A stretch of 64,000 nucleotides of DNA from an uncultured Alphaproteobacteria bacterium (GTDB lineage Bacteria; Pseudomonadota; Alphaproteobacteria; CAAHEQ01; UBA3637), in assembly GCA_944392145.1 (NCBI GenBank), contig CALXVS010000005.1:1-64000 (forward strand), read 5' to 3'. Below the pieces are notes generated by a model that saw nothing but the letters and a program-made list of their open reading frames with translations, ran no database searches and had not been told where the DNA came from. The position numbers and the translations under genes are program-made. Shown piece by piece: positions 5,726 to 29,453 of this stretch (within the stretch, counting starts at the first letter, position 1; each line of letters opens with the position of its first letter).

Positions 5726-5800
5726 TGGGCTGTCGCCAAGTGGTAAGGCAACGGTTTTTGATACCGTCATTCGTTGGTTCGAATCCAGCCAGCCCAGCCA
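5726..5800 (+). tRNA. tRNA-Gln (anticodon TTG), integration target
   Basis: 75-nt cloverleaf with acceptor TGGGCTG/CAGCCCA, anticodon loop TTTTGAT (anticodon TTG) between ACGGT and ACCGT, T arm with GGTTCGAATCC, and encoded CCA. Its last 19 bases are repeated exactly three more times in the next 24 kb, marking it as the attachment site used by the elements downstream. The tRNA itself is intact. Confidence 0.95.
5782..5800 (+). repeat. att core copy 1 (within tRNA-Gln)
   Basis: AATCCAGCCAGCCCAGCCA, the 3' end of tRNA-Gln. Exact copies at 5958-5976, 17502-17520 and 29610-29628; a decayed copy lies near 34684-34699. Confidence 0.85.
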
Positions 5801-5976
5801 ATAAAAAGAACACACCTCAGGGTGTGTTTTTTTTATTGACCGGATGTGGGGATGAGAGACAACGAATGAAATGAGTTGGTTCGTTCACGAAGCGTAAGCG
5901 GAGTAGACGCCGTTAGGCGGTCCCGAAGTTATGAGGGATAAATTGCTTGCAATTTACAATCCAGCCAGCCCAGCCA
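5801..5976 (+). repeat. att-associated ~175-bp repeat, copy A
   Basis: Starts with the tRNA terminator and ends with a second exact att core (5958-5976). Inside are short hairpins (TTCG-TTCA-CGAA, CGCC-GTTA-GGCG) and the palindrome AAATTGCTTGCAATTT. Near-identical copies lie at 17350-17520 and 29454-29628, a decayed half at 34631-34699, and a short piece at 17560-17598. No convincing ORF; the fixed structure suggests a cis-acting module rather than coding DNA. Confidence 0.85.
5809..5834 (+). terminator. tRNA operon terminator
   Basis: AACACACC-TCAG-GGTGTGTT followed by eight T. The same hairpin is carried along in the repeat copies at 17.36 kb and 29.46 kb; in the latter, AACACGCC/GGTGTGTT keeps the pairing through a G-U pair. 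Confidence 0.9.
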
Positions 5977-5984
5977 AAACAGAC

Positions 5985-6380
5985 AAGTCGCTATTTTTAG
6001 CGGCTTTTTCTTTATTTTACAAGCACTTATATTGGTCCGTGTACAGCGTTTTTCAAAAAGCTCTTTTTTCAGCCTTACACGGACTCAAAATTCAAAAAAG
6101 CCTTTGTTTTCAATGCTTCTGTCTTGGGATGTCAATTTTTCATCCCAGAGAGAGGAAGATGTATTCAGACTGAGCTTAGATGAGAAAAAGGTGGTCCTAT
6201 AACACGCTTATTGCTACTGCCATCTCGGGGTACCTACCTGCCACCTAGAGGACCTCGGGAACCCTACCGGCACATCCCAGCTATAAAATAAGTGCAACAT
6301 CGTTAAAGGCGTGTTTTTTTGCAAGAGCCTTTACATGCGAGAGCCAATGAGAGGCAATGCTTATTCAGTATGATTGCTCA
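5985..6380 (+). ncRNA. Putative large structured RNA, copy 1
   Basis: No coding frame is conserved here, yet about 390 nt align almost without gaps to 29640-30035, with roughly 70% identity by eye. Shared parts: a terminator-like hairpin AAGTCGCTA/TAGCGGCTT; a long-range 9-bp helix GTCCGTGTA/TACACGGAC; a TGGGATG/CATCCCA hairpin; an invariant stretch GGTTTTC-free core around TATTGCTA-TGCCATCT; and a 3' block AAGAGCCTTT...CAATGAGAGGC. In copy 2 the helices are kept by G-U or compensating changes, e.g. GTCCGTGTG with TACACGGAC. Located directly after the att core in both elements. Family not identified; GOLLD- and ROOL-type RNAs also occur near tRNAs in mobile DNA, but I cannot match them. Strand is inferred. 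Confidence 0.6.
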
Positions 6381-6416
6381 TTTCAACCTTTGCCTATACG
6401 TATACAAAGGTTGAAA
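6381..6416. repeat. 12-bp inverted repeat, type AACCTTTG, copy 1
   Basis: TTTCAACCTTTG and CAAAGGTTGAAA flank CCTATACGTATA, itself palindromic in TATACGTATA. Similar elements with the same 14-base centre pattern lie at 10741-10768 and 13202-13235. Could be an operator or a transcript-end hairpin; 135 bases upstream of the NUDIX gene. Confidence 0.7.
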
Positions 6417-6551
6417 CAAATGCCAACATCTTAAATATCCATACAAAATCTTAACTTTTTGGTTTCAAAATGGTTTTACTTTTATAAAAATTATACTATA
6501 TTTGCTTTATTCATTGCAGAAAATATATAAAAATACTGGGGGAAGTAAGCA

Positions 6552-7199
6552 ATGATCAGTAGATATGACAAGAATATGGTATATATTGGACCTGTTGATA
6601 AAAAAGAAGCTCATATAAAAGGCTATTGGCATAAAGTCGCTACTGGGATTGTGTATAATCCTATGGAAAAAACGATTTTCTTTCAAACAATCTATCCAAA
6701 AGAAAGCTACGGTTTTGACAGACCAGATTATATAGATTTTGCTGTCGGGGGTCACATTGAAGATAAAGAAACGCCATTAGATGGTTTATATCGGGAAGCA
6801 AAAGAAGAATTGGGGTTAGATAAAGAAATTATGGATAACGCCTATTTTATTGGCGTGCGTCGAATAAATAAGGACTTAACTGCAAACTATAAATTAAGAG
6901 AATTTCAACACATCTATGGCATTCCAGTCAACTTTGACTTACAGGATTTTAATATGTTGGCTTCAGATAAAGAAGTAAAATCCATTGTAAAAGTGAATGT
7001 GGATGACTTAATCTGTCTATTAGACAACAATACGCCTGAAATCAAAGCAGAGCATCGTATTTTAGATAAAGAGACAAGAGAGACTATTGAATATAAAACC
7101 CTGCCATTAACAAAAAATGATATTATAGATGATTATTTTGTAGGGGATTTTCTTTTAAATTTATTATATACAATTAAAGCCAATTCTTTTTTTAGTTAG
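6552..7199 (+). CDS. NUDIX-domain hydrolase
   Basis: 215 residues with the complete Nudix box Gx5Ex7REUxEExGU at residues 67-89: GHIEDKE, then seven residues, then REAKEELGL. Enzymes of this superfamily hydrolyse nucleoside diphosphates linked to another group, using Mg2+ held by the box glutamates. Substrate cannot be predicted; the C-terminal ~100 residues do not resemble a subfamily I can name. Start chosen at the ATG with GGGGGAAG nine bases upstream. First coding gene after the structured RNA, and the start of a rightward run of three genes. NUDIX enzymes in mobile DNA sometimes remove nucleotide signals, which is only a suggestion here. Confidence 0.85.
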   Translation: MISRYDKNMVYIGPVDKKEAHIKGYWHKVATGIVYNPMEKTIFFQTIYPKESYGFDRPDYIDFAVGGHIEDKETPLDGLYREAKEELGLDKEIMDNAYFIGVRRINKDLTANYKLREFQHIYGIPVNFDLQDFNMLASDKEVKSIVKVNVDDLICLLDNNTPEIKAEHRILDKETRETIEYKTLPLTKNDIIDDYFVGDFLLNLLYTIKANSFFS

Positions 7200-7262
7200 T
7201 CTTAATTTTCGGTTTTACTTTTATAAAGTAATAGGTTATTATGAAAGAAAGGAAGTCGTAAA

Positions 7263-8399
7263 ATGAAGAAAAAAAATTATAAATATAAAAGTTCTATCAA
7301 AACAGACTTTATTTATTGGTTAGTGCAACAAAAAAAAGATGATAACCTAAAGAAATATCGACGAGGAACTGCTATCGCTTATGCAGAGAGACTTTCACGT
7401 TTTTGTAATAAATTTTTTCCAGCTAAAAAAGAAAAACCATTATTTCAAAAAGAAAAATCTTTGCTACAATTTGTAGATAATATTGGACCTTCTATGATGT
7501 GTTGCTGTTTGTGTACATCTTTAAAAGAACCAAATGAAATGTTGAAAACTGAAGAAATGCGAGTATTAGCAAATGCTTTTTTTTGTTACAGGGTTTCCAA
7601 AGATCAAAGGACTGCACATCATCAAATGTTTAAAGATGATTTATTTGAAAAGATGGTAATTTATCTATGTCGAAAAAAATCAGGTAATGAATACCAAAAA
7701 GTCATAGAGCTGTTTTATGATTTTTTGAAAGATACAAAATTTGATGGTTTTTCAACCTTGTATGAAGAGATCGAAAAAAGGTTAGAAGAACTGCGTAAAG
7801 ACGATAGCGTTTTTTGGAAATATGGTTATATTGAAGCGACAAAAAGAACGCCAGCAATGATTATTGCTAGGGCTGGACAAGTTGGAATTCCTGTTACCGC
7901 TCTGACAAAAATATTTAAGTGCGACTACCGAACAATTAAGAAAATGTTAAAAGACAATAAAATTGCTAGTTGTCATCATCGAAGGGGATCAGTTAGCATA
8001 GCTGATTTGAATGCTTATTTTTTAAAAAAACATACTGGATTGCATCAAAAAGATGAAAATGGAGTGATTTTTACATCAAAACAGGAAGATTTTATTGAAA
8101 ATGCATATGCGGCATTATTAAATTGTACAGAAAAGTTAAAAAGAATTAATCCGACTTTATCTGATGACAAAAAACAAGAACGCAAAAAAGAAATATTAAA
8201 ATATATAAATGAGTTATTGTCCAATTATCAAAATTATGGGCGTAATAAAATATCGCATTGGACTACTTGCAAAGAAATTTCAAAAGTCACGGGCAAAACG
8301 AATCGCACTATTCAGCGCGCAGCAAGAGCAAAAAAAATTCCAACAACACGGTATTTTAAGAAAAAAGTAGGATACTTTAACGAAAAAATTGAGCTCTAA
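7263..8399 (+). CDS. DNA-binding protein with two HTH segments, function unknown
   Basis: 378 residues, basic and Lys-rich, with no signal or membrane segment. Two stretches look like helix-turn-helix of the excisionase/MerR type: residues about 210-260 (ALTKIFKCDYRTIKKMLKD) and about 340-375 (CKEISKVTGKTNRTIQRA), each followed by a basic wing-like strand. A Cys cluster MMCCCLC lies near residue 80. RBS GAAAGGAAG before ATG; 64 bp after the NUDIX gene, probably same transcript. It could be a regulator, a replication initiator or a directionality factor of the element. No family recognised. Confidence 0.65.
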   Translation: MKKKNYKYKSSIKTDFIYWLVQQKKDDNLKKYRRGTAIAYAERLSRFCNKFFPAKKEKPLFQKEKSLLQFVDNIGPSMMCCCLCTSLKEPNEMLKTEEMRVLANAFFCYRVSKDQRTAHHQMFKDDLFEKMVIYLCRKKSGNEYQKVIELFYDFLKDTKFDGFSTLYEEIEKRLEELRKDDSVFWKYGYIEATKRTPAMIIARAGQVGIPVTALTKIFKCDYRTIKKMLKDNKIASCHHRRGSVSIADLNAYFLKKHTGLHQKDENGVIFTSKQEDFIENAYAALLNCTEKLKRINPTLSDDKKQERKKEILKYINELLSNYQNYGRNKISHWTTCKEISKVTGKTNRTIQRAARAKKIPTTRYFKKKVGYFNEKIEL

Positions 8400-8504
8400 A
8401 GCCAGAAGAATAAAACATATATACTTTATCAATACCCATTAGTAACACTTATTTATCAATATGTTATTGTGACTATTGTATGTCGCAAAATGTCGTCAAT
8501 AAAT

Positions 8505-8532
8505 TTGACTAATTTTAATCCCGTGCTATATT
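8505..8532 (+). promoter_or_regulatory. Promoter of the methyltransferase gene
   Basis: TTGACT at 8505-8510 and TATATT at 8527-8532 with a 16-bp spacer, leaving a ~70-nt leader that contains an ACTTTC/GAAAGT hairpin and two RBS-like GGA sites. Confidence 0.6.
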
Positions 8533-8607
8533 CACTCCACTTTCTCAAGTTGGGAAAGTTGTGTTTCGAAAGGAACGCATGTTTTAATTTAAATAAAGGA
8601 TTTTATT

Positions 8608-10674
8608 ATGACTAATATAAAAAAAGTCGCGAATGGTGAAACCGTTCAAACTGAAACACATCAAGAAATTATTGAAGCCGAGTATACTGAAATTAACGTT
8701 ATGAAGGCTTCGGAAATTGATGTACAGGAGCATGCGAATGACAATATCCCAGACAATCCTAACAAACCAAATGAATGTGCAGTAGTTCCAATTCCATCAC
8801 AAGAAGAATTGTTTATCGATATTGACGCTATTGTTGATCAATTTGATTTACCTAAAGACCAGCTTGAAATGATTTGTGAAAACAATCCAAAAGCTGTATA
8901 TATTCCAACTGATTCGATTAAATTACAACAATTTATTCGTTGTCAACAAGGAATCTCAAAAACTGCTGAGAGCTTCTCAAAAATGAAAAAACTGCCACCA
9001 ACTGCACAGAAATTCTTTTTGCAAAAAGCTCAATTATATGCATATCTCTGGCTTAAAGCAGAAGCGAGATTAGGTAAAGAACTCCAAAAAATTGCGACAC
9101 AAGAAGGTTTTAGAAGCGATTTAAAAGAAAAAGAAAAGGGTAAAGAGGCTGACAAAAGTAAAGATAAGGACAAAAATGAAGATAAAAAAAAGGTAAAGCG
9201 TCCTTTTAAAGAAGTCTTTGAAGAAATTCGCACTAAAAGACAAATTTTAGATGAAGATTACGGGCTTACTTATAACCAAGCACGCGACTTAGTACGTTTA
9301 AGTGATGAAGTGATTGAACTTGAAATGAAATATGCAATTGCAAACAACGAAGTTCCTTCCAGACGACACGCATTATCATTTTTAAACAAAGAAAGTTCTA
9401 AAGTTGAAAAAGAATGTAAAGATGCATTTGAACTGGACACTTCTTTTTCTGCAGTTTCTCATGATGACTTATTGGGTAGAATTACGGAAGAAGATATACC
9501 TTATTGTTCAATTTTTTCTTGCATTGGATCTGGTGAATATTATTTAAAATCACGCGGTTTTAAATGTGTCTTAGCCAATGAAGCTGATGAAAAACGGGCA
9601 GAATACTTCTCTTTAAAAATGAAAGAATTGGGCGAGGAGGACTGCAAAATGTTTCAAGGCAAATTTCAAGATCACTTTGATGAACTGGTTGATGAATTTA
9701 AAAAAAGAAACAGTCAACTGCTTTTGGCCTGTCCACCTTGTCAAATTTTCTGCGCACAAAAAGGCAAAGGCTTTTTGAAGGATCCCAGATTGGATTTGAT
9801 TGTTTGGCTGATTAAGTTTATTAAGGAGGTCAAACCCAAATATATTGTTATTGAAAATGCCAAACAGTTCTTAAACTTCTCAATGCCAAAAGATACAGAA
9901 AATGATGGAGAACCAGCCAAAAATTTACGTACTGCATTAAAAGGTAAAACCATTGGACAATATATTAAAGATGAATTAACTTCTGAAAATTATGATGTTA
10001 ATTTTGCAAATGAAGACGCTTGTTTTTATGGCTGCCCTCAATCGCGCGTTAGATCCATTGTGTTAGCATCCCAAACCGGGGTATGGCCATTTCCTAAAAA
10101 AGATGATCATGCTGTATTACCTTGGCAAGTGATTGGTCATTTACCGTCACTTGAACCTGGTGAGGGAACTGGTTATGATAAAGCGCCTCTTTTATCAAAT
10201 AAAAATCCTGAATTAGCGGCCGAAATCTATAATGCTTTGATTCATACAGCCCCGGGTTGTTGTGTTGCTGATAATCCACCAGAATATCAAATTCCCGGCT
10301 ATGGTTTTTTCGGTGCGAAATGTTCTAGAAATTCTTGGAATAAGCCTTGGAGCACAATTGAAGGTGGGTCAAATCAAGCATTAGGTTTACGCACCATCCA
10401 TCCTGGAAGACCTAAACCAGATGGAACCTATTCGGATCCTCGTTGTTGTACTTTACGAGAGACGTTTTTATTAAATACTCTTCCCGAAGATTACACAATT
10501 CCTAAAAAGTTTGAAGATAAGAAATATGAAAACTTTATTTGGACAGTGATGGGGGAGATTTTCTTACCTCGCATGTTGGAAAGAATCATGGAAACAATTC
10601 CTTTGCCTCATCGAAAAAATCTGATTAAAATTGAACCAAAGGAAGAAAAAAACGAGAATGAAGAGGTGGCATAA
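8608..10674 (+). CDS. DNA (cytosine-5) methyltransferase with long N-terminal extension
   Basis: 688 residues. The C-terminal ~395 residues carry the ordered C5-methylase motifs: I (FSCIGSGEYYL, about 300), IV with catalytic Cys (LACPPCQIFCAQKG, about 374), VI (IVIENAKQF, about 416), VIII (GCPQSRVRSIV, about 477) and a C-terminal motif IX/X region (LRETFLLNTLP, GEIFLPRMLERIM). The first ~290 residues are extra: a helical part (about 75-165), a Lys/Glu/Asp-rich linker (about 172-200) and a second helical part. This length is far above a plain Dcm-type enzyme. No restriction enzyme lies beside it, so it looks like an orphan methylase that may mark or protect the element. Own promoter and terminator. 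Confidence 0.88.
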   Translation: MTNIKKVANGETVQTETHQEIIEAEYTEINVMKASEIDVQEHANDNIPDNPNKPNECAVVPIPSQEELFIDIDAIVDQFDLPKDQLEMICENNPKAVYIPTDSIKLQQFIRCQQGISKTAESFSKMKKLPPTAQKFFLQKAQLYAYLWLKAEARLGKELQKIATQEGFRSDLKEKEKGKEADKSKDKDKNEDKKKVKRPFKEVFEEIRTKRQILDEDYGLTYNQARDLVRLSDEVIELEMKYAIANNEVPSRRHALSFLNKESSKVEKECKDAFELDTSFSAVSHDDLLGRITEEDIPYCSIFSCIGSGEYYLKSRGFKCVLANEADEKRAEYFSLKMKELGEEDCKMFQGKFQDHFDELVDEFKKRNSQLLLACPPCQIFCAQKGKGFLKDPRLDLIVWLIKFIKEVKPKYIVIENAKQFLNFSMPKDTENDGEPAKNLRTALKGKTIGQYIKDELTSENYDVNFANEDACFYGCPQSRVRSIVLASQTGVWPFPKKDDHAVLPWQVIGHLPSLEPGEGTGYDKAPLLSNKNPELAAEIYNALIHTAPGCCVADNPPEYQIPGYGFFGAKCSRNSWNKPWSTIEGGSNQALGLRTIHPGRPKPDGTYSDPRCCTLRETFLLNTLPEDYTIPKKFEDKKYENFIWTVMGEIFLPRMLERIMETIPLPHRKNLIKIEPKEEKNENEEVA

Positions 10675-10689
10675 GCCGCCTCTTTTTTT
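10663..10689 (+). terminator. Terminator overlapping the methyltransferase stop codon
   Basis: GAGGTGGC-ATAA-GCCGCCTC followed by seven T; the TAA stop lies in the loop, so the stem's left arm encodes the last residues. Confidence 0.9.
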
Positions 10690-10740
10690 ATTTAACTTCT
10701 GACTTAATACATACAAAGGTTATGTAATATAAAAATGATT

Positions 10741-10768
10741 AACCTTTACCTACGTATGTACAAAGGTT
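10741..10768. repeat. Inverted repeat, type AACCTTTG, copy 2
   Basis: AACCTTT and AAAGGTT around ACCTACGTATGTAC. Related to 6381-6416 and 13202-13235. A lone half-site (ACAAAGGTTAT) lies at about 10714-10724. Confidence 0.65.
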
Positions 10769-10795
10769 GGAAAATGAAAAAAAACATCTCAAGCA

Positions 10796-10925
10796 CAAAC
10801 AAACGGTTTTACATTTCTGATAATTCACGACATGTTAAAACGGTTTTCAAGGCATTATTCTAAAAAGTAAGTTCCTATCGCTTTAAATTTCAAAAACAAA
10901 ATGTTCTATAAAAAGTATGAATGAT
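10796..10925. other. Noncoding block shared with element 3, copy 1
   Basis: About 130 bp with no ORF that aligns to 33296-33425. Best-kept parts are GGTTTTACATT, CGGTTTTCAAGGCATT and CAAAATGTTCTAT. It lies 140 bp ahead of the HUH-like gene here and 180 bp ahead of the nuclease gene in element 3. It may be an origin, a recombination site or another RNA. The rest of the 10690-11067 gap shows nothing else I can name. Confidence 0.6.
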
Positions 10926-11067
10926 ACCGAATTTTGAAGAATTGCTTAAAAATAGTTGAAGGTTTCTTCCTGTTTAGATTCTGAAAAAGGCGTACAGGTA
11001 AAGCGAGACTTCTCCTTTATCTATTCATAAGTATACCCTCTCTTCACTTAAAAAAGGAGACAATGCA

Positions 11068-11655
11068 ATGCGCAATATCGTTGAAATATCAAGTCCAGAA
11101 CAAGAAAAGATAATCAAACGGTTATATGAAAATGGCTTTATACCTAATACGTTCATTATCTTTAATCCTGGACAAACAAATATCTCTGAACAGAATCTTG
11201 CATATCGTTTTAAAGAAGGACTGGGAAAATATTATTCCAAAACTCTTGGTAAAAGATACAACAAACATCCTGAAAAACAATATAAGATGATAGTATTCTT
11301 GGAGCATGGTAAGAACAGAGATATAGATGAAAGCACACCACATTTACATATTCTAATAGACCTACCTAAAGACAAGGTTCAAGACTTTTATGAGTTTATG
11401 CTCAATCATTTAACGCTATATTACTATTACATATCCGATGTAAGAGATAAAACTTTAATAGATATAACCGGACAGCCATTAGATATGAAGCAAATCTGGT
11501 GTTATGGTGATAAAGAGTTTGTGAAATCAGAAAAAGACAGACGTTTCAGACCCAGCAGAATATTTACGACCAAAGATTTTCAGAAACCTATCCGTCATTT
11601 TAACCAGTATAATAAACATGAATGCATACGTGAATGGTTTTTATCTGCACCATAA
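11068..11655 (+). CDS. HUH-endonuclease-like protein (Rep/relaxase type), tentative
   Basis: 195 residues; RBS AAGGAG before the ATG. Near residue 90 it has TPHLHILIDLP, matching the metal-binding HUH motif of rolling-circle Rep proteins, relaxases and Y1 transposases, where two His flank a bulky hydrophobic residue. A strand-like NTFIIFNP lies upstream at about 27-35 where motif 1 is expected, and a Tyr-rich stretch (LYYYYISDVRDK, about 110-125) could supply the nucleophile. Such enzymes nick one DNA strand through a phosphotyrosine to start replication or transfer. The assignment rests on one short motif. It follows the shared noncoding block, which might hold its nick site. Confidence 0.45.
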   Translation: MRNIVEISSPEQEKIIKRLYENGFIPNTFIIFNPGQTNISEQNLAYRFKEGLGKYYSKTLGKRYNKHPEKQYKMIVFLEHGKNRDIDESTPHLHILIDLPKDKVQDFYEFMLNHLTLYYYYISDVRDKTLIDITGQPLDMKQIWCYGDKEFVKSEKDRRFRPSRIFTTKDFQKPIRHFNQYNKHECIREWFLSAP

Positions 11656-11897
11656 ATTTTTATTTACTATATGAGAGAAATAGTAATCAGTCCATTTTTT
11701 GAAGAAAACTGACGAAAAAGCATTTTATCTATAAATGATGAGCGAAAAATTTTAACACTTCTTCATAAAATGAGCAGAAACGCATTCCAAACACTCACCA
11801 GACACAACAGATTAAAAAGATGTGTCAACCTATACCAAAATAAAACTGCTCACCACGGATGATTTAAACTGATTTGGGAATTTATAGCTAAAAAATA

Positions 11898-11921
11898 ACC
11901 GCTATCTAAGAAAATAGCGGT
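11898..11921 (-). terminator. Terminator of the DUF3768 operon
   Basis: ACCGCTAT/ATAGCGGT around an 8-nt loop, followed on the reverse strand by TATTTTTTAG. The remaining part of 11656-11961 between the convergent genes has no other visible feature. Confidence 0.7.
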
Positions 11922-11961
11922 ACATTTTATTTTTATCATATTTTTTGATTTTTCAATTAGA

Positions 11962-12303
11962 TCACCAATCTGAATCAAGCATAATAGTGAGGGTTCTGGC
12001 ACACTTTGACGGATCTGAAGGATCCTCTGAACCATATTTCATATCAGGTGAGTAATAATCTACTTTCCACACTATCTTTTCACCTTTATAATCAAAATTG
12101 CCAAAATCTCTTTCTGAATAGGGATCATTTCCTCTATGAAAATCACTAAACGTTCTTATCTTTTCAAATATTTCGGCAATTTCTTCTTTTGATTTAGATC
12201 TAATGGATCGTGTTAAATGTATTTGACCGCCGATTCCATAACGTCTAAGCAAATCATTCAATTTTCTGATCTTGGCTACTTTATCTATCCCTTTATTCGA
12301 CAT
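11962..12303 (-). CDS. DUF3768-family protein
   Basis: 113 residues with the family pattern: LNDLLRRYGIGGQIHLT at the N-terminus, FHRGNDPYSERDFGNF in the middle, WKVDYYSPDMKYGSEDPSDP, and ARTLTIML near the C-terminus. This family is widespread on plasmids and islands of Alphaproteobacteria; its function is not known. RBS GGAG seven bases upstream; start overlaps the end of the upstream gene by 11 bases, so translation is coupled. Last gene of a leftward set of small element genes. Confidence 0.85.
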   Translation of the reverse strand: MSNKGIDKVAKIRKLNDLLRRYGIGGQIHLTRSIRSKSKEEIAEIFEKIRTFSDFHRGNDPYSERDFGNFDYKGEKIVWKVDYYSPDMKYGSEDPSDPSKCARTLTIMLDSDW

Positions 12304-12490
12304 TAAAATACTCCGTACAAGTAGCTAGAAGATGGTTATAATCAGCACTCATTGCTTCTTTTGTAAATTCGTTTATTTCAGTTTCAGATAGTCCTGCATG
12401 TTTCATAGCACGTCTGCATATTCCAAGAATGTTAAATGCATTTGAATCTTGACCAATCAATTCAACTGTTATATCTGGATATTTAGGCAT
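12293..12490 (-). CDS. Small conserved element protein
   Basis: 65 residues from the ATG at 12490, chosen because GGAGG lies five bases upstream; a TTG at 12502 is the longer alternative. The pattern YPDITVELIGQDSNAFNILG followed by RRAMKHAGLSETEI and NHLLATC is of a type I associate with small plasmid/phage proteins of no known function. Overlaps the upstream gene by 8 bases and the DUF3768 gene by 11, so the three are one operon. Confidence 0.7.
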   Translation of the reverse strand: MPKYPDITVELIGQDSNAFNILGICRRAMKHAGLSETEINEFTKEAMSADYNHLLATCTEYFNVE

Positions 12491-12797
12491 TGACGCCTCC
12501 AAAACGTTGAACTAATACAAACTTTCTAAACTGTTTAAGAGAGTTTATGTAGGACTCATGGCTTCTACGACCAATTGTCCATTTATCACCACGATGACCA
12601 TATTGTTCTAAAATAGTGTTGATGTTGTCAGCTAATTGCTTTGCTGTATAATTTTCTTTTTCGCATACTTTGGCCACTCTCCATGCATAGTCTATGGCTG
12701 TTGACGGATTACCGGAAATTGAAAATTCTTTATATCCTTTTTGAACCAAATAAGCTTGAAATTGATTTAACATGAACATTTCTCCTTTTGCTTGCAT
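12483..12797 (-). CDS. Small helical protein, SAM-like/core-binding fold possible
   Basis: 104 residues. FQAYLVQKGYKE followed by regularly spaced helices and SYINSLKQFRKFV resembles the N-terminal core-binding domain of tyrosine recombinases, but no catalytic domain is attached, so this is only a suggestion. Two starts are possible: ATG at 12797 with AAGGA nine bases upstream, or the Met at 12773 with AAGGAG eight bases upstream. First gene of the overlapping three-gene set. Confidence 0.6.
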   Translation of the reverse strand: MQAKGEMFMLNQFQAYLVQKGYKEFSISGNPSTAIDYAWRVAKVCEKENYTAKQLADNINTILEQYGHRGDKWTIGRRSHESYINSLKQFRKFVLVQRFGGVNA

Positions 12798-12913
12798 ACT
12801 TTTTTATCCTTTCTGTTTATTTTGTTAATACGCTGATTAAAATTTAAATTATCTAAATTCTTCGCTAATAACGCTCATCATTAAGGTAATTTAAAAATTT
12901 TAGTTCTGTTTAT

Positions 12914-13048
12914 TTATTGTTCAACTGATATGATATCTGTCATAACTGCACAACCACGTTCGGCTTCACGTTGACAAGCTTCTATTGCTTCTCTTAAAGA
13001 CCAATAAATTGTTGGCATTAAAATTCCATTTACTTTTATTTGATACAT
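12914..13048 (-). CDS. 44-residue small protein
   Basis: The ATG at 13048 is preceded by AAAGGA at a normal distance, whereas the longer frame to 13126 has no RBS. Sequence MYQIKVNGILMPTIYWSLRE with EACQREAERGCAVMTDIISVEQ looks like a small folded alpha/beta protein. Function unknown. It lies 116 bp upstream of the overlapping operon, on the same strand. Confidence 0.5.
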   Translation of the reverse strand: MYQIKVNGILMPTIYWSLREAIEACQREAERGCAVMTDIISVEQ

Positions 13049-13201
13049 AATAAAATCCTTTCTTTTTCGTTGGTTATAGAAATATAATATCGCGTTTTTA
13101 TTCATTCGCGAGCCCCTTAAACGCAAAAAAATTAGAAAAATTCTACTTTTTTGAGCCTTTTTCTACAAAAAATTAGAGTTTTATTAGTAAAAAGCAGAAA
13201 A

Positions 13202-13235
13202 TTTAACCTCTACCTACGCATATACAGAGGTTAAA
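13202..13235. repeat. Inverted repeat, type AACCTTTG, copy 3
   Basis: TTTAACCTCT and AGAGGTTAAA around ACCTACGCATATAC. Compared with copies 1 and 2 the arms changed together (CCTTT/AAAGG to CCTCT/AGAGG) while the centre stayed alike. A second hairpin CCTCTGC/GCAGAGG follows at about 13245-13265. Confidence 0.65.
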
Positions 13236-13279
13236 CACAGCAAACCTCTGCCAAAAAAGCAGAGGTCGGTACTTCAATT

Positions 13280-13299
13280 AAGTGACATTGATGTCTGTT
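13280..13299. promoter_or_regulatory. Palindromic site AAGTGACAT-N2-ATGTC, imperfect copy
   Basis: Matches the perfect palindrome at 33256-33275 in element 3 except at the right end (ATGTCTGTT). Possibly a shared operator. Confidence 0.45.
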
Positions 13300-13303
13300 A
13301 ATG

Positions 13304-13338
13304 AAAAAAACAACCTCGATTTAATCAAAACCGAGGTT
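13304..13338 (-). terminator. Terminator of the Slam operon
   Basis: On the reverse strand AACCTCGG/CGAGGTT forms the stem and GTTTTTTT follows, 10 bases beyond the Slam stop codon. Confidence 0.85.
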
Positions 13339-13347
13339 AGTTCATTA

Positions 13348-14709
13348 TTAAAACCGTTTTTGGATGGATAATTCAATAAGTGATTTTTGATATTCTCGTT
13401 GCCAAATATTTGATTTTTTATCCGTATATGAATAAGTTAAAACGGGCATTAAACCCCATAAAGAAATTTTACGGTTTGATAAAGAGACAGAATAACGTTG
13501 CGTGATATCCCATTCTTTGATTTCTTTAAATTCATAATCTTTCACCGTCCAGCGCTTTCCTTTATAATTTGTAAATAAGACTGAAGGTTCAACATATACA
13601 TGAAAACCCCAAGGCACATCGGCCCCAAATCCTAAAGCTAAATTTACCCGATCATTTGTATATGTTTTATCTTTCGTTTTTTCATATTCATAGCCGGTTT
13701 TGAATATCAAATACTTTGATGAATCCAATGCATAAAACATGCGTAAACGAGCCGTTTTAACATCTCCGTTTAAAATATCTCCATAATCATCATAATGCGT
13801 CGGCGTATAAGCCAAATATAACCGTGCATTTAATTGTTTTGTTAAATCATATCCTGTATCAACCATAAAACCGGTTGTGTAATTATACGCTTTATGACCT
13901 AAAAATCTTTTAGAAAAGGTAGGTCCAAAGAATACATCACCTTTGTTATAAACGTATTTAAGTCCTAAAACATAAGATAAATAAATATCATCATATTTTT
14001 TATCCTGATATTTCAAAGAATAAATTAATGCTTCATTTCTTATACGCCAATTATCAGATAACTTAAATTCATAATTGCCACCAACCGTAATGTTGAGACC
14101 AACATCTTTTTCTGGGTCATCTAATGTATTACACATCGGACCAAACATAGTCATAACACACTGTTCACCGGATGTTGTATTATTGACATTATTATCCGGT
14201 GCAATACCGAAATTAAACCAAAAATTGTAATTTTTATTTTGTCTGATATAATACAGCGCCTGTTTAATTCGAATTTGAATGGGAATAGGTAGTTTTTCGT
14301 CTGCCAACGCTAAACGATAGTGATAATCCGCACGGATCCAATCTTTGCGAATGAGGTATAATTCAGCTAATCGAAAACGGATATTTGAAATATTGGGTTG
14401 GTGTTCCAAAATAAAATAGTAAATATCAATGGCTTCATCTATTTTGTTTTCTTTTGTTGCTATTTGAGCCAATAAATACAACCGTTCAATTTCTAATTCT
14501 TTTTGTTGAAACGGTTTTAAAAGAAGAACTTTCTTTGCATCTTCCAGTTTGTTTTTTTCAATCAACTCTTGAGCAAAAGTCAAAGTCTGCTCATGTGTCA
14601 TTGTGACAACGGTTGTTTCGTTATCATTTGATTTTAATGTTGAAGCTTGGGCAGTTATTCCACCCAAGCCGATCAACATCATAAATGTCAAACAAACACG
14701 TAAGAACAT
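13348..14709 (-). CDS. Surface lipoprotein assembly modifier (Slam, DUF560)
   Basis: 453 residues with a signal peptide (MFLRVCLTFMMLIGLGGITAQAS). Residues about 40-155 are TPR-like helices (LAQIATKENKIDEAIDIYY, FRLAELYLIRKDWIRADYHY). From about 165 on, a porin-like beta-barrel starts with NFWFNFGIAPDNNVN, a typical Slam/DUF560 signature, and ends in SIQKRF with terminal Phe as outer-membrane barrels do. Slam proteins move dedicated lipoproteins across the outer membrane to the cell surface; the TPR part binds the substrate. The lipoprotein gene lies 3 bp upstream in the same operon, a textbook substrate-translocon pair. Inside a mobile element, it is probably horizontally acquired. Confidence 0.88.
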   Translation of the reverse strand: MFLRVCLTFMMLIGLGGITAQASTLKSNDNETTVVTMTHEQTLTFAQELIEKNKLEDAKKVLLLKPFQQKELEIERLYLLAQIATKENKIDEAIDIYYFILEHQPNISNIRFRLAELYLIRKDWIRADYHYRLALADEKLPIPIQIRIKQALYYIRQNKNYNFWFNFGIAPDNNVNNTTSGEQCVMTMFGPMCNTLDDPEKDVGLNITVGGNYEFKLSDNWRIRNEALIYSLKYQDKKYDDIYLSYVLGLKYVYNKGDVFFGPTFSKRFLGHKAYNYTTGFMVDTGYDLTKQLNARLYLAYTPTHYDDYGDILNGDVKTARLRMFYALDSSKYLIFKTGYEYEKTKDKTYTNDRVNLALGFGADVPWGFHVYVEPSVLFTNYKGKRWTVKDYEFKEIKEWDITQRYSVSLSNRKISLWGLMPVLTYSYTDKKSNIWQREYQKSLIELSIQKRF

Positions 14710-14712
14710 TTA

Positions 14713-16170
14713 TTATTTCCGTGTTCCACCAAATACCATTTCGGCATCAACCCGATGTGTATCATTATTTCCCCAAAAAGTGGCAGAACCGACTACTTCA
14801 TCTGGATTTTTTGGATTTTCTCCATAATATTTGATATCTGCTCCAGCTAGCCCCGGATTTTCTAAAGTATAAGCAGCATCTTTTGCGGTTCCTGAAACGC
14901 TGATATCATATCCTCTATAAGCTGACGTATTCGTTTCCAAAGTAACTTTATGCCAATCGGTAAAATCAGCAACTAATGTTTCTTTACCATCTTTAAAGGT
15001 TAAATTAGCAGTTCCATCATATAGTTTTGATGTTTCAATCTCAGTATCTTTATGTTCAGCCCAAACATTGGCTAATGCTTTACCTTCAAAATTCATTTCT
15101 GTATCAATTTGTGGTAAATCTTTGGCTTGAGCTGACAATGCTTCATAACCACCATAGAATAAAGCGATATCTTTACCAGACTCATTACCGGCTTTAATAT
15201 CATATGTGATTGTTCCGAAATCGGCATATTTTAAACCGACATCTTGTCCTTTATTATCAAGTTTAACAGTGGCAGTGTCTACATCATTATCCTTATAAGC
15301 ACAATTGCCTTGTTTCTCACAAACATTTTCGTCAATCAGTCCGTTTGTTAAATCTAACGTATCAATAAAGGCCAATATGGCATTGAGAGTGTCTTCGGGT
15401 TCATTGCCCCAATGCGCTTTAACAGCTGTTTTTAAAGACGTTTTGACATCTTCAACAGATGTTGATTTTGCAAAAGTTACTTCTTCTTCATACTTTCTGC
15501 CATATTCTCCATTGTAAACAAAACCATAACTGACCAAACCTTCGTTGTTTTTATATACACCATTACCGGTACGGTTGAATTTCAGAACGCTGGCGCCGCC
15601 GTCATCTGTTTCCTGTAATCCGGTTAAGTTACCATTTTTATCAATAATAAACTTATAGATAGCTTGATCTGCTTTATCATACTCAGGCTCATAGAATGTA
15701 ATATCTTTCAAAGACAAATTACGTTCTGTTCCTAATTTGGCATAGATATCTTCTGCTTTTGACTTAATGGCTAAATCTTGAGCGGCTGTTTTTATATCGT
15801 CTAATGATTTATCTTTTAAACCTTCAATATCCTCACCGGCCATTGCCAAAGACAATAAAATATCTTCTTTTGTTGCATTTGAAAAATCTTGGTCAACAAG
15901 GATTTTTTTCATGTTGTTATAGGCGTTATTGATTTCTTCAGCAGATGCTTCCGTTGTTATTCCCGCAGATGTTGCTGCATTTTCATAATTTGCGGTTCTG
16001 CGTTGTGAATTGTTAACCGTTTGAATGCTTGTCCCAGATTCTGGAACCGTTGAACCATCAGGTAAACTGGTTGTCGGGATCAAAGAACTTCCGCCTCCAC
16101 TACCACCACTACTGCAAGCGGTTAACATTGTTGAAAGAGCCAAAACGGCCATAAATGATAATTTTTTCAT
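14713..16170 (-). CDS. Surface lipoprotein, likely Slam substrate
   Basis: The ATG at 16170 is chosen over 16194 because AAAGGAG lies five bases upstream. 485 residues with a lipobox signal (LALSTMLTAC, then SSGGSGGGSS, a flexible tether typical of surface lipoproteins). Mature N-terminal half is helical and Asp/Lys-rich; the C-terminal half is beta-rich and ends with PDEVVGSATFWGNNDTHRV, resembling the C-terminal barrel of TbpB/Slam-dependent lipoproteins. One Cys pair (NVCEKQGNCAY). Probably displayed on the cell surface by the Slam protein encoded next. Ligand unknown; no TonB receptor is next to it, so metal-protein uptake is not implied. Confidence 0.82.
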   Translation of the reverse strand: MKKLSFMAVLALSTMLTACSSGGSGGGSSLIPTTSLPDGSTVPESGTSIQTVNNSQRRTANYENAATSAGITTEASAEEINNAYNNMKKILVDQDFSNATKEDILLSLAMAGEDIEGLKDKSLDDIKTAAQDLAIKSKAEDIYAKLGTERNLSLKDITFYEPEYDKADQAIYKFIIDKNGNLTGLQETDDGGASVLKFNRTGNGVYKNNEGLVSYGFVYNGEYGRKYEEEVTFAKSTSVEDVKTSLKTAVKAHWGNEPEDTLNAILAFIDTLDLTNGLIDENVCEKQGNCAYKDNDVDTATVKLDNKGQDVGLKYADFGTITYDIKAGNESGKDIALFYGGYEALSAQAKDLPQIDTEMNFEGKALANVWAEHKDTEIETSKLYDGTANLTFKDGKETLVADFTDWHKVTLETNTSAYRGYDISVSGTAKDAAYTLENPGLAGADIKYYGENPKNPDEVVGSATFWGNNDTHRVDAEMVFGGTRK

Positions 16171-16433
16171 TTTTACTCCTTTTTTGTTGATCAATAAAAA
16201 ATATGAAGATTTTTCTTCTTACCTATTAGACCACAAACCAACGTTTTTGGTCACCTTGCTTTTATTCAAGATAATAAAATGTCTATACAGTTCTTAAAAT
16301 CCTTTTTTTTATTTAATTTTTAAATAGTTTTTCCAAAATATACAAAAAAATACAAAAGTATGAAAAAGTGGTTGATTTTATCGTTCTATTAAATGAGCCA
16401 CTTTTTTTAACTTTATTTATCAGGAGGTATAAC

Positions 16434-17036
16434 ATGGCTGTTATTGGCTACATCAGAGTTTCAACAGATAAACAAACCTGTGAACATCAAAAATATGAAA
16501 TTAAACAATTCGCAAAAGCTCAAAAAGTCAAAATTACGTATTGGGTAGAAGAAACTATTTCATCCAGAAAATCTTTAGATAAAAGAAAATTAGGAAAATT
16601 ACTCCAAAGTATGAAAGCCGGAGATATCCTGATTTCTTGTGAAATATCTCGTCTGGGGCGTTCAATGTTAGAGGTTATGCGCATATTAGAAACTTGTTTA
16701 AACAAAGAATGTCAGGTCTGGACGATAAAAGAAAATTTTAAACTAGGCGCAGATATTCAATCAAAAGTAATGGCGTTTGCTTTTGGTATATCAGCCGAAA
16801 TTGAACGCAGTTTAATATCACAACGGACAAAATCATCTTTGGCAAACATAAAAGCCAGCGGAAAAAAACTGGGCCGTCCATTCGCTGCAACAAGTAAGAA
16901 ATTAAAACTGTCAAAGAATTCAAAACGAGTCAAAGATTTATTGGATAAGGGTGTTTCAAAAGCTCAAATTGCTAAAGTTATGGGTGTTGGACGCACAACG
17001 CTTCGGCGTTTTATCTCTCGTCAAGGATGGGCTTAA
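16434..17036 (+). CDS. Small serine recombinase (resolvase/invertase)
   Basis: 201 residues from the ATG at 16434, which has a perfect AGGAGG upstream; the longer frame to 16368 has none. Catalytic domain begins VIGYIRVSTDKQ with the nucleophile Ser near residue 10, and continues with the CEISRLGRSMLEVMRIL helix-E region and EIERSLISQRT. The C-terminal ~45 residues (KRVKDLLDKGVSKAQIAKVMGVGRTTLRRF) are the HTH that binds the crossover half-sites. Such proteins resolve, invert or, less often, integrate DNA. Its position 300 bp from the right end suggests that it acts on the ends of element 1. No invertible segment is obvious beside it. Confidence 0.92.
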   Translation: MAVIGYIRVSTDKQTCEHQKYEIKQFAKAQKVKITYWVEETISSRKSLDKRKLGKLLQSMKAGDILISCEISRLGRSMLEVMRILETCLNKECQVWTIKENFKLGADIQSKVMAFAFGISAEIERSLISQRTKSSLANIKASGKKLGRPFAATSKKLKLSKNSKRVKDLLDKGVSKAQIAKVMGVGRTTLRRFISRQGWA

Positions 17037-17143
17037 GATGTATCCACTCTCTTTTAACTTCTTGCCCTAGGGGCAGGAGGTTGTGTTTAGCAGATGCCAA
17101 AAGAGAAATTGGAGCGTTAAAATTAAATTGTTATAAAATCGGG

Positions 17144-17290
17144 ATGGATCCAAATATTATTTCTTCTGCTAGTATGCTAGTACATCATGAATTATTTGCA
17201 GAATTTGTTGATAAAAATGGAAATGTAAATTGTACAGATGAGGAAGAATTGCATGTATGGAAAAGTGTAATGGAGCGATTATTGTTTTAA
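17144..17290 (+). CDS. Short ORF, doubtful
   Basis: 48 codons from the ATG at 17144 (MDPNIISSASMLVHHELFAEF, ending SVMERLLF); the frame can be extended to 17027, overlapping the recombinase. Composition is protein-like, but there is no good RBS. It may be the tail of a lost gene at the element end. Low support. Confidence 0.25.
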   Translation: MDPNIISSASMLVHHELFAEFVDKNGNVNCTDEEELHVWKSVMERLLF

Positions 17291-17349
17291 TGGTCTGCTG
17301 TGTTATTTCTGGTAAAACAAGTCCGTGTATTACCAGACCTCTCCAGCCA

Positions 17350-17520
17350 ATAAAAAGAACACACCTCAGGGTGTGTTTTTTTTATTGACCGGATGTGGGG
17401 ATACGAGTCAACGAATGGGTTGGTTCGTTCACGAAGCGTAAGCGGAGTAGACACCGTTAGGCGGTCCCGAATTTATGAGGGATAAATTGCTTGCAATTTA
17501 CAATCCAGCCAGCCCAGCCA
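17350..17520 (+). repeat. att-associated repeat, copy B
   Basis: Starts ATAAAAAGAACACACC (the tRNA-Gln downstream sequence) and ends with the exact 19-base att core at 17502-17520. Preceded by the element right end TCCGTGTATTACCAGACC, shared with copy C. Internal hairpins as in copy A; a few substitutions (ACACCGTTAGGCGG for ACGCCGTTAGGCGG). Confidence 0.85.
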
Positions 17521-17523
17521 AAA

Positions 17524-17557
17524 AGGAAAGCGTCTGCGAAAAGCGGGCGCTTTTTTT
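17524..17557 (+). terminator. Hairpin terminator after att copy B
   Basis: AAAGCGTCTGC-GAAAA-GCGGGCGCTTT, pairing through two G-U pairs, followed by a T-run. Confidence 0.65.
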
Positions 17558-17589
17558 GTGATATGGGCTGAGGGGATACGAGTCAACGA

Positions 17590-17745
17590 ATGGGTTGGGA
17601 TAGATTTGTTGGAGAATCGGGCGCTGTATTGGGCATTGATCATTTCGGCGCTTCGGCCCCCGGTGATACATTATTCCAACAGTATGGATTTACCGTTGAA
17701 AATGTGGAAAGAATTGTATATGAATTATTAGAAGCGAATGCATAA
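17590..17745 (+). pseudogene. tkt: Transketolase C-terminal fragment
   Basis: 51 codons reading GWDRFVGESGAVLGIDHFGA and ending VYELLEANA-stop, which is the transketolase C-terminus (the IDHFGASAP motif is diagnostic). Its 5' side is not transketolase but a piece of the att-associated repeat (GGGGATACGAGTCAACGAAT); the join falls in GGTTGG, present in both partners. Its own terminator follows at 17769-17800. This is a scar: the body of tkt was removed or lies elsewhere. Not expected to make an enzyme. Confidence 0.85.
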
Positions 17746-17768
17746 ATAACACCATTCGGGAAAAGGAA

Positions 17769-17800
17769 AACGGGTGAAATAATTTGTCATCCGTTTTTTT
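17769..17800 (+). terminator. Terminator after the tkt fragment
   Basis: AACGGGTGA pairs with TCATCCGTT (one G-T) around nine bases and is followed by seven T. Together with the att repeat, two terminators and the tkt scrap, this accounts for most of the 17291-17825 gap. Confidence 0.75.
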
Positions 17801-17825
17801 ATATTTTTAATACATTAAGTGCAAC

Positions 17826-18869
17826 TTATTCTTTTTCTTTTTCTTGAATGAAGCGACTTAAATGATATGCTTTATGCAACCAAAACGGTTCAGCTTGTTG
17901 TTGCTCAATAAAGTGGAGCAGTTGATTTAAATTATCCAGATATTTTTTATTATGTGGCCATTTAAAAAACACGCCGTTAAAATGAAAAGCAAACAAATCT
18001 CGTGCTTTTTCTTCCGCAATACCAATTTCTTTTAATTTTAAATAAATCATCATCGGTAATCGGACGGTTGAATCGTAGTATTTGTCACGATTGTTGACAA
18101 TTGATGCTTGATGATTGCGTTTATAGTATATTTTTTGCGGTAGAGCCAAGCCGTGGGCGCCACTGAGCAGAACAGACATACAAAAACATTCATCTTCAAA
18201 ATAAAGCCCGTCGGGGAAAGTAATTTTTTTATCCTTCAAAAAAGAACGTCGATAAACTTGTTTGCCGGATGTGGCGGGAAAATTGAATAAGACTTCACTC
18301 GCTAATTCGGAACCGATATACGGGTAAATTGTATGAGGTATAATCTCTTTGGGTAACCCATTATAATATGTAGCGGATATTTTTTCACCGTCTTGATTAA
18401 CGGGTTGAATGTAAAAGGATACAATATCGGGATTAATATCTGATATTTTTTTTGATTTTTGAATAGATTGATATAATTTTTTTAAAGCATCTTCATCAAT
18501 CCAATCATCTGCGTCAATAAACCAAATATACTTCCCTTTCGCTTGTTTCATCGCATTATTGCGAGCGGTTGAAAGACCTTGATTTTCTTGATTGATCACT
18601 TTGATACGGTTGTCTTTCTCGGCAAAATACATAATGGTTTCCAAGGAAGAATCCGTGGAACCGTCATTGACGATAATAAATTCAAAATCGGGAAATGAAG
18701 AACTTAATACGGATTGAATGGTTTGAGAAATATATTTTTCATAATTATAGTTGGATAAAATAATTGTAAAAAACGGCTTTTTAAATAAATAAGTTAAACC
18801 GCTATATGTGATACCGAAAGATAAAACAAATATCAAAATAAATCGTAATGAACTTAAAAACCGTTTCAT
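17826..18869 (-). CDS. Glycosyltransferase family 2, membrane-anchored
   Basis: 347 residues. One N-terminal membrane helix (FILIFVLSFGITYSGLTYLF, about 11-30) is followed by the GT-A fold: FFTIILSNYNYEKYI, FIIVNDGSTDSS with the nucleotide-binding Asp, LSTARNNAMKQAKGKYIWF, and IDADDWID with the DxD metal site (about residue 118). The C-terminal ~120 residues fit the acceptor side of family 2 enzymes that build O-antigen, capsule or lipooligosaccharide. RBS AAAGGAT before ATG. Transcribed alone, divergently from the exporter operon. Sugar and acceptor unknown. An N-terminal anchor on a family 2 enzyme is less common and would hold it at the inner membrane. Confidence 0.85.
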   Translation of the reverse strand: MKRFLSSLRFILIFVLSFGITYSGLTYLFKKPFFTIILSNYNYEKYISQTIQSVLSSSFPDFEFIIVNDGSTDSSLETIMYFAEKDNRIKVINQENQGLSTARNNAMKQAKGKYIWFIDADDWIDEDALKKLYQSIQKSKKISDINPDIVSFYIQPVNQDGEKISATYYNGLPKEIIPHTIYPYIGSELASEVLFNFPATSGKQVYRRSFLKDKKITFPDGLYFEDECFCMSVLLSGAHGLALPQKIYYKRNHQASIVNNRDKYYDSTVRLPMMIYLKLKEIGIAEEKARDLFAFHFNGVFFKWPHNKKYLDNLNQLLHFIEQQQAEPFWLHKAYHLSRFIQEKEKE

Positions 18870-19115
18870 ATCAGATAATCCTTTTGTGAAGATACGCTAT
18901 TATAGCAACAAATAAAATAACGGGTCAAAGCATTTTTAGCGCATTCACATAAAAAAGTTTTGATATAAATCGGTAAAAGCAACAGAAGCAGAATATATTA
19001 TCTAACAGTTTTTTTATGCGGTTGATAAATTTGTATGGAATAATAAATAATTCTTTTTTTTACTGAAAAAATACGTTATATTGACAGCTATCAAGTTTTA
19101 TTCGGGAGTATATCA

Positions 19116-20030
19116 ATGCAAGATGAAGTGATTTTGGTGGATGGGCTTTCCAAATCATTTTATTATTCAAAGGGATTGTTTTGTAAAAGTAAAGTGCGAA
19201 CGGATGCAGTAAAAAATCTTTCGTTTTCCGTTCATGCCGGCGAATGTGTGGCTTTTATCGGCCCGAACGGAGCCGGGAAATCAACAACCGTTAAATTATT
19301 AACTTCCGTTTTGTACCCAACCTCCGGAACTGCTCTTGTCGGCGGACTTAATCCGTGGGAGAATCGGCGTGATTTAGCGCGCCGTATCGGGGTAGTATTC
19401 GGGCAACGCTCTCAATTATGGTATCATTTACCTGTGCGAGATTCTGTTTTTTTACTGGCAACGGCGTATGATATACCGGATTGTATTGCACAAAAAAAAT
19501 GGCATGAATTGTCCGAAGTATTAGATATTGGTAAATTATGGTTGGTTCCCGTTAAACAATTATCTCTCGGGCAAAGAATGCGTTGCGAAATAGCGGCCTC
19601 TCTTTTGCACGAACCATCTATTTTATTTCTTGATGAACCGACAATCGGTTTAGATGTGGAAGCGAAAAGAATATTGCGTGATTTTTCAAAAAAAGAAGCC
19701 ACTGAAAACAAAACAACGATTTTACTCACCAGTCATGATACGGAAGATATTGAAAAAGTTTGTCAGCGCGTTATTCTTATCAATCAAGGAACGAAAATGT
19801 TAGATACTTCCGTTCAACAATTAAAAACGGATTTTCTTTCAAAAAAATATGTTCGTTTGTTTAAGAATAATGGTGATTGTGAATGTTTTGCTATTGAAAC
19901 GAAAAATAAATCCGTTCAATCTTTTTTAAAACAAACAAATTTAAACGAAATAACGGATATAACGATTGAAAATCCGCCGTTGGAGGAAATCATTCGAACA
20001 TTGTATATCAGCGGAGAGGGGCATGCATAA
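19116..20030 (+). CDS. ABC-2 exporter ATP-binding protein
   Basis: 304 residues with Walker A GPNGAGKST (about 50), Q-loop FGQRSQLWYHL, signature LSLGQRMRCEIA (about 150), Walker B ILFLDEPTIGLD and switch His in TSHDTEDIEK. The FGQRSQLWYHLP Q-loop is characteristic of the group that works with two different permeases (COG4586 type), and two such permeases follow. The last 70 residues form a regulatory tail. Start has GGGAG upstream. Overlaps the next gene by 8 bases. Substrate unknown; some relatives export small cationic compounds, others polysaccharides. Confidence 0.9.
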   Translation: MQDEVILVDGLSKSFYYSKGLFCKSKVRTDAVKNLSFSVHAGECVAFIGPNGAGKSTTVKLLTSVLYPTSGTALVGGLNPWENRRDLARRIGVVFGQRSQLWYHLPVRDSVFLLATAYDIPDCIAQKKWHELSEVLDIGKLWLVPVKQLSLGQRMRCEIAASLLHEPSILFLDEPTIGLDVEAKRILRDFSKKEATENKTTILLTSHDTEDIEKVCQRVILINQGTKMLDTSVQQLKTDFLSKKYVRLFKNNGDCECFAIETKNKSVQSFLKQTNLNEITDITIENPPLEEIIRTLYISGEGHA

Positions 20031-20811
20031 GTATCTTTCGTTGATAAAAATTTCTTTTACGGCACAAAAAAATTTTATACCTGTTTTGTGTGTCAGAGTT
20101 TTTTTTCTGTTATTATTAGTTTGTATCTTTAATCAATTTTGGCATATTGTTAAGCAAGAGAATGCGGTATCCGCTTTGATTAATCCGGTTGATTTTATCT
20201 GGTATTTATTAATCGGTTGCGTTTTACAATATGGGCGAGCGGAAGGGTTTCATTACCGAATTGAACAAGAAGTAAAAAGCGGAAACATTGCTTACGGATT
20301 GCTTCGTCCGGTATCCGTTATCGGCGCATATTTCTGCGAGGCGATGGGCACATTTTTATTTCGGTTGCCGTTTTTGTTTTGTGTGGGAGCTGTTTTTTTA
20401 TTGATATTAACAAATGGTGAGTTGCCGACCGATTTTTCTGCTTTGCCCGTTATTTTTTCTTTAATGGTGTTAAGTGCGATTTTTATCAGTTTATGCACGG
20501 TATTTATCGGATTATCAACGCTATGGATGCAAGATGCGTTGCCGATGTTTTGGCTTATTCAAAAAGCGGAATATATTTTAGGAGGGTTATTTTTTCCGTT
20601 ATCGTTTTATCCCGAATGGTTGCAACAAATTGCTTTCGCTACGCCTTTCGGATGGATAAATTATGGTGTTGCGCGATTGATTTATAACTATTCTTCGGTT
20701 AATGCCGTTGAGACGTTTATTCATATTTTATTTTGGATTATCATTATGATTTGTGTGAATATGTTGTTTTATCGATTACTGATAAGGAGAATAACAATTC
20801 ATGGCGGATAG
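20023..20811 (+). CDS. ABC-2 family permease subunit 1
   Basis: 262 residues from the ATG at 20023, which overlaps the ATPase stop; GAGAGGGG gives the RBS. Six hydrophobic segments, with the pattern of COG4587-type permeases: cytoplasmic loop EGFHYRIEQEVKSGNIAYGL LRP after helix 2 and FFPLSFYPEWLQ before the last helix. Forms a heterodimer with the next gene product. Inner membrane. Confidence 0.85.
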   Translation: MHKYLSLIKISFTAQKNFIPVLCVRVFFLLLLVCIFNQFWHIVKQENAVSALINPVDFIWYLLIGCVLQYGRAEGFHYRIEQEVKSGNIAYGLLRPVSVIGAYFCEAMGTFLFRLPFLFCVGAVFLLILTNGELPTDFSALPVIFSLMVLSAIFISLCTVFIGLSTLWMQDALPMFWLIQKAEYILGGLFFPLSFYPEWLQQIAFATPFGWINYGVARLIYNYSSVNAVETFIHILFWIIIMICVNMLFYRLLIRRITIHGG

Positions 20812-21592: not shown

Positions 21593-21597
21593 AAGGA

Positions 21598-22647: not shown

Positions 22648-22650
22648 ATT

Positions 22651-24216: not shown

Positions 24217-24363
24217 TAGAATAAACTCCTTTTGTAATATAGGGGAAAGTCTACACAATTTAAGAAAAAGAATCAAGAAAAATGAATCAAGAATTTATGC
24301 AAGTCGTTGACTTTAAAATGAATCTATGTTAAAAGCGGAAATTAAGTATAAAAAGGAAGCAAA

Positions 24364-24837: not shown

Positions 24838-24850
24838 AAAAGGGGGCTTA

Positions 24851-27645: not shown

Positions 27646-27662
27646 TACAGTTGTGTTTAACA

Positions 27663-28607: not shown

Positions 28608-28821
28608 AATTCCTCTTTATTCCTTATCCGGTGATATCTATATCAATATAAATGATAACTTTGATTGATATTAACAGAATAATTTGAAATCGCAACACTT
28701 TTTATGCATATTATGAACGGAAGGTATTTCTTTTTGCATGCGGTAGCAGAAATCCGATAAATGCGAATCCGATTTTTTTTAATTAAAAGAACGGCTTTTT
28801 ATTCACAAAAATTCAAATAGT

Positions 28822-29379: not shown

Positions 29380-29453
29380 AGGAATTTTATTTGTATTTTA
29401 ATAAAGTTAATTTTTTTCAAATTATTCCGTGTATTACCAGACCTCTCCAGCCA

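Follow-up and report, generated by a model that had tools for sequence, protein, structure and literature searches.

What has been conserved between two stretches of DNA that lie in different elements of one array, each behind a copy of a tRNA 3' end and each followed by unrelated genes, is the question raised by this locus of an uncultured alphaproteobacterium. Both stretches (copy A, 5977-6372; copy B, 29629-30024) belong to a window, as the whole analysed DNA is called here, of 64,000 nt, and both lie directly 3' of CAATCCAGCCAGCCCAGCCA, which repeats the 3' end of tRNA-Gln, as a sequence-only reading had already observed. They align almost without gaps, with 76% identity over 386 nt (82% over 571 nt once the upstream tRNA-end block is added); the nearly gap-free alignment of about 390 nt described in that reading is thus recovered, while the divergence, given an identity of 76%, is about 24% and not the 30% estimated there. 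It also holds that no open reading frame spans both copies, that the pairings GTCCGTGTA/TACACGGAC and TGGGATG/CATCCCA are retained, with G-U changes in copy B, and that the stretch belongs to the conserved backbone shared by tRNA-integrated elements of one family, whose cargo is unrelated.

The proposal that the stretch is one structured RNA of about 400 nt fared differently. When the + strand is folded as a single strand, it folds better than shuffled sequences in both copies (z=-2.38 for copy A, z=-3.89 for copy B) and the - strand of copy A does no better than shuffles (z=-0.12); the signal originates in the first part of the stretch, block 1, the second part, block 2, giving on its own a fold not above shuffles (z=+0.58) and almost no compensatory change (2/41 pairs, covariation term -0.2). 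A single large RNA is thereby rejected and, judged from its sequence, the stretch is composed of two separable blocks, because each of them occurs alone elsewhere in genomes of the same family. At gathering scores, the two tRNAs were all that Rfam 15 returned, and the sub-threshold matches (E<1) were at chance level, so that neither copy has a credible match; GOLLD and ROOL, the known RNAs named in the sequence-only reading, were not matched. Copy A as query found nothing in phage and plasmid collections, and neither did a short block-1 pattern in viral contigs.

The organization of the window, in which the tRNA gene, the cassettes, blocks, arms and recombinase genes given below lie on the + strand, places the two blocks within an array. 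The anchor is a tRNA-Gln(TTG) gene (5726-5800), whose final bases, CCAGCCA, are restored wherever a cassette ends. It is followed by mini-cassette 1 (5801-5976), a gene-free unit of terminator and hairpin-rich block that closes with a repeated tRNA 3' end, and then by a large cassette of 11.4 kb (5977-17349), which opens with block 1 (5977-6155) and block 2 (6160-6369) and continues with genes for a NUDIX protein, an HTH protein, a C5 DNA methylase and an HUH-like protein, a Slam-type surface protein module and, close to its right end, a small resolvase-family serine recombinase (16368-17033), the last feature being an end arm (GTCCGTGTATT.., 17321-17349) placed exactly 29 nt ahead of the CCA in the restored tRNA end. 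After mini-cassette 2 (17350-17520) there is a large cassette of 11.9 kb without block 1 (17521-29453), with glycosyltransferases, an ABC transporter, arylsulfotransferases, a porin, the remnant of a large serine recombinase (28822-29379; 89% identical to an intact one of 531 aa in L039) and again an end arm 29 nt before CCA (TTCCGTGTATT.., 29425-29453). Mini-cassette 3 (29454-29628) precedes the third large cassette (29629 to about 34700), carrying block 1 (29629-29810), block 2 (29813-30022), a UvrD-like helicase protein and an unknown gene, its right end being decayed. The whole tRNA-Gln array is bracketed by a 353-nt inverted repeat (2652-3004/35311-35663; 94% complementary, about 32 kb apart), and two of the large cassettes share a 101-nt direct repeat (77%; 10801-10901 and 33300-33400). 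The HUH-like protein, of 195 aa and with the motif HLHILIDLP, has no Pfam match; it is encoded at 11068-11655 in the window and also in L039 (14830-15414), L046 (15123-15707) and L053 (4401-4985), with 94-97% identity across the four elements, all of which have both blocks.

Gene-free mini-cassettes such as the three in the window are also found behind tRNA-Gln in L125, L126, L131, L134, L139, L147 and L152; they consist of a terminator and small hairpins, in which 12/19 predicted pairs are altered on both sides between species, their folds are variable (z from +0.19 to -3.44), and in some the first bases complement the 3' end of the tRNA, as if mimicking a tRNA.

Block 2 comprises about 200 nt of conserved sequence and breaks off sharply on the right at TTCAGTA. 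The larger elements carry it as a block of its own, which is exchangeable; its right part directly follows a large serine recombinase gene, past the stop codon, in L122 and L069, and likewise tyrosine recombinase genes in L103 and L104. The latter two enzymes, located at tRNA-Gly and tRNA-Leu, are overall different, yet their C-terminus is identical and is followed by the right part of block 2, a pattern suggesting mosaic exchange. Downstream of block 2 in copy A (6381-6416) lies a palindrome, TTTCAACCTTTG..CAAAGGTTGAAA, which recurs near DNA-methylase-like genes in L039 (9434-9466 and 13353-13389) and is possibly an operator.

Block 1, of about 175 nt, recurs alone, in tandem arrays behind tRNA genes. 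An alignment of 51 diverse copies contains two helices: the stem of an intrinsic terminator (AAGTCGCT..AGCGGCTT followed by a T run, 5985-6006 in copy A) and a pair of inverted arms (GGTCCGTGTA .. TACACGGACTC, 6034-6087). Helix cells are paired in 89.6% of cases, 106 of them being altered on both sides, and the stem covariation score is 0.367, compared with 0.218 (sd 0.010) after shuffling and at most 0.123 with slid partners, values which overstate independence because the aligned sequences are related. Many homologues show the covariation that the sequence-only reading had asked for. The covariance model built on block 1 (R1; core 5977-6102 in copy A and 29629-29754 in copy B) matches in 37/43 genomes of the order, represented by one family only in the genome set compared, and in just 3 of roughly 140 genomes from elsewhere in the class. 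Copies per genome reach 43 in G003, the maximum, 24 in G013 and 20 in G021; a few (L045 7559, L041 5850) have no tRNA-end core upstream. A motif pattern found 9 named contigs, all from uncultured Alphaproteobacteria genomes, one of them from roe deer cecum.

The arrays to which these copies belong are built of cassettes with a constant order, namely an intrinsic terminator, an inverted pair of arms of about 10 bp, usually one gene in either orientation, and a third arm at the far end; they are anchored at tRNA genes for Gln(ttg, ctg), Glu(ctc), Lys, Met, Pro(ggg, cgg), Ser and Tyr. In 52 cassettes, of 515-2323 bp and mostly with a single gene, 34 run along the array and 18 against it. The cargo is unrelated between cassettes (hydrolases, a periplasmic binding protein, NADAR, methyltransferase, glycosyltransferase, HAD, NTPase, Ham1, DUF3137 and MORN proteins, together with many genes without known identity), and no recombinase was found among the single-gene cassette cargo scanned. 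In 29/35 cassette ends the end arm is placed exactly 29 nt ahead of CCA in the restored tRNA end; in the tRNA that anchors the array, the T-loop is 24 nt ahead of CCA in 24/28. The three arms of a cassette change together, by class: the end arm matches the hairpin arms of its own cassette at 8.28 of 10 positions, against 7.23 (sd 0.24) after shuffling (0/2000), and at arm position 3 the agreement is 24/25. Neighbouring cassettes of one array differ in block 1, and the end arm follows its own block 1, not the next one. At 30 tRNA-Gln loci, what comes next downstream is the gene's own terminator, a mini-cassette or one of many types of block 1. An additional inverted repeat around the CCA core (TTGCACGA..TCGTGCAA in L044), conspicuous in individual cassettes, is not claimed, because over 25 cassettes it is only weakly above letter shuffles (3.44 versus 2.98, sd 0.15).

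A direct view of the borders is offered by a cassette with a 160-aa gene present in two genera, at a tRNA-Gln(TTG) array in G018 (genus g9) and at tRNA-Gln(CTG) in G004 (genus g5): homology between the two stops at the predicted borders, CCAGCCA on the right and the common tRNA end on the left. On the evidence of the arrays, the tRNA-end repeats, the fixed spacing, the covarying arms and this cassette at two tRNAs, block 1 is best read, with a probability of roughly three in four, as the left end of the DNA attachment site of small gene cassettes which integrate at the 3' end of tRNA genes. From this arrangement we infer an excised circle, the binding of a recombinase to the arms and the direction of events, as follows. 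In the circle, both cassette ends would be joined into one site, in which the end arm (GTYCG..) would be followed by 29 nt up to CCA, by 8 nt, by the terminator and by the same arms as an inverted pair. Binding to these arms, a site-specific recombinase would carry out the exchange between the circle and the terminal bases of the tRNA gene. The incoming cassette would restore the tRNA end and supply its own terminator, and repeated insertions would give rise to tandem arrays. A wider version of this scheme, tentative and rather doubtful, supposes an integron-like system with tRNA genes as universal landing sites: its arms (GTTCGAAT for the Pro/Met class) would mimic GTTCRAAT, the T-loop motif of tRNAs, so that a single recombinase acting in trans could stack single-gene cassettes behind any tRNA across the order.

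It might be argued that block 1, perhaps together with block 2, is a transcribed structured non-coding RNA whose hairpins act as such; indeed, the hairpin covaries in 51 sequences, and the fold of the + strand exceeds that of shuffles, unlike the - strand of copy A. This reading is, however, unlikely, also in view of the unstructured block 2 and of the lack of an Rfam match. The intrinsic terminator stands at the 5' edge of the stretch (5985-6006), and no promoter-like site is found on the + strand between 6007 and 6346. Moreover, the third arm, at the far end of the cassette and unpaired, covaries with the arms of helix 2 as well. Interior G-U cells are nearly absent from the arm helix (3/408), compared with 36/408 in the terminator stem (Fisher p=2e-8 on cells, which are non-independent), and in the GTT class (Pro/Met/Glu), with arm 1 GTTCG(A/C)ATG and arm 2 read as GTTCGTAAA, the arms are mismatched at identical positions in nearly all 18 sequences. 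The scarcity of G-U pairs and the mismatches fixed in one class favour sequence recognition by a protein, which appears to fit better than RNA pairing. Together with the unpaired end arm, whose changes go with those of the hairpin arms in the same cassette, they favour recognition of the sequence as DNA; the covarying stem apparently behaves like paired DNA recognition sites.

Quite improbable is also a single-stranded site of the integron type, where the hairpin would be recombined as single-stranded DNA in the manner of attC, with tRNA genes replacing attI. The tandem single-gene cassettes, each with one hairpin of conserved stem and unpaired loop, agree with it; the cassette borders, on the contrary, are at the tRNA CCA, about 57 nt outside the hairpin, genes lie in both directions, no integrase gene adjoins the arrays, and the mismatches in the stem are fixed. 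Least probable of all is that the arrays are passive leftovers of nested integrase-bearing islands that lost their genes, block 1 being merely conserved sequence downstream of tRNAs: some large elements do carry recombinase genes or remnants, and each recombinase family tested is missing from several array-bearing genomes, but block 1 varies between array neighbours with the end arm following its own block 1, and the same single-gene cassette stands at different tRNAs in different genera.

If block 1 is an attachment module, a recombinase should act on it, and the distribution of no tested family follows that of the arrays. G003 and G013, with 43 and 24 copies of block 1, yielded no large serine recombinase (PF07508), and these enzymes were rejected as the mover because they were not found in the genomes richest in copies. 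Small serine recombinases related to that of the window are widespread yet not tied to the arrays, and were not found in G014, G016 and G023; in G031 and G010, no tyrosine recombinase was found apart from two Xer-like ones. At the array heads there is no tyrosine recombinase and no adjoining integrase gene. Tyrosine recombinases of about 590 aa were discarded as the integrase, since they sit at other tRNAs, without block 1 serving them; for XerC/XerD, a dif-like site (TTGTCGCATAATTTATATTATGTATAGT) was found, and it is unlike the arms. The mover may be either a helper acting in trans and often now absent, or a recombinase outside the families tested, or Xer used in an unusual way.

GOLLD and ROOL are large RNAs near tRNAs in phage-like DNA; proximity to tRNAs in mobile DNA is shared with them, whereas the present stretch is short and split, its second half is unstructured, and it has no match to them. 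The attP of lambda-type integrases comprises arm-type and core-type sites, and the cassettes resemble it in having a core in the tRNA 3' end and arm copies on both sides at fixed positions; they differ in that no integrase gene lies beside the site and in that identity with the tRNA may be as short as 6-8 nt. In mobile integrons, tandem, mostly single-gene cassettes share a common repeat with an inverted repeat, and the same organization, each cassette with its recombination repeat, is found here; unlike mobile integrons, the arrays are anchored at tRNA genes and contain genes in both directions, they show at their heads no IntI-type tyrosine recombinase, and their borders are at CCA, about 57 nt from the hairpin, rather than inside it as for attC.

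Tycheposons, named from Prochlorococcus, are described in the cited source as elements of 4-200 kb with a tyrosine recombinase (PMC10872708). As there, islands of cargo lie behind tRNA genes; most cassettes here, however, span 0.5-2.3 kb, with no recombinase found inside, and the elements of the window carry serine recombinase genes or remnants only. The closest likeness is to the tRNA-targeted cassettes of additive flexible genomic islands, described in Alteromonas (PMC4119200), 'Ca. Actinomarinales' (PMC7771536) and 'Ca. Methylopumilus' (PMC10872708): small cassettes with varied cargo are inserted at tRNA genes, the tRNA 3' end is directly repeated with each cassette, and exchange between genera occurs. 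For those islands, known from streamlined marine bacteria, the descriptions consulted mention only a repeat of the tRNA end, whereas here a conserved module opens every cassette of the family, with covarying arms and fixed spacing, at about ten tRNA genes across the order. Within the limits of the literature searched, no description of the block-1 module was found; tRNA cassette islands are known as a kind, and the module and its extent appear to be undescribed. With the conserved module, the fixed spacing, the arm classes and the borders now defined, the anatomy of such cassettes is explicit, which makes their mechanism testable in small gut Alphaproteobacteria with up to 43 copies per genome, and the sequence model can be used to find cassettes of this kind elsewhere.
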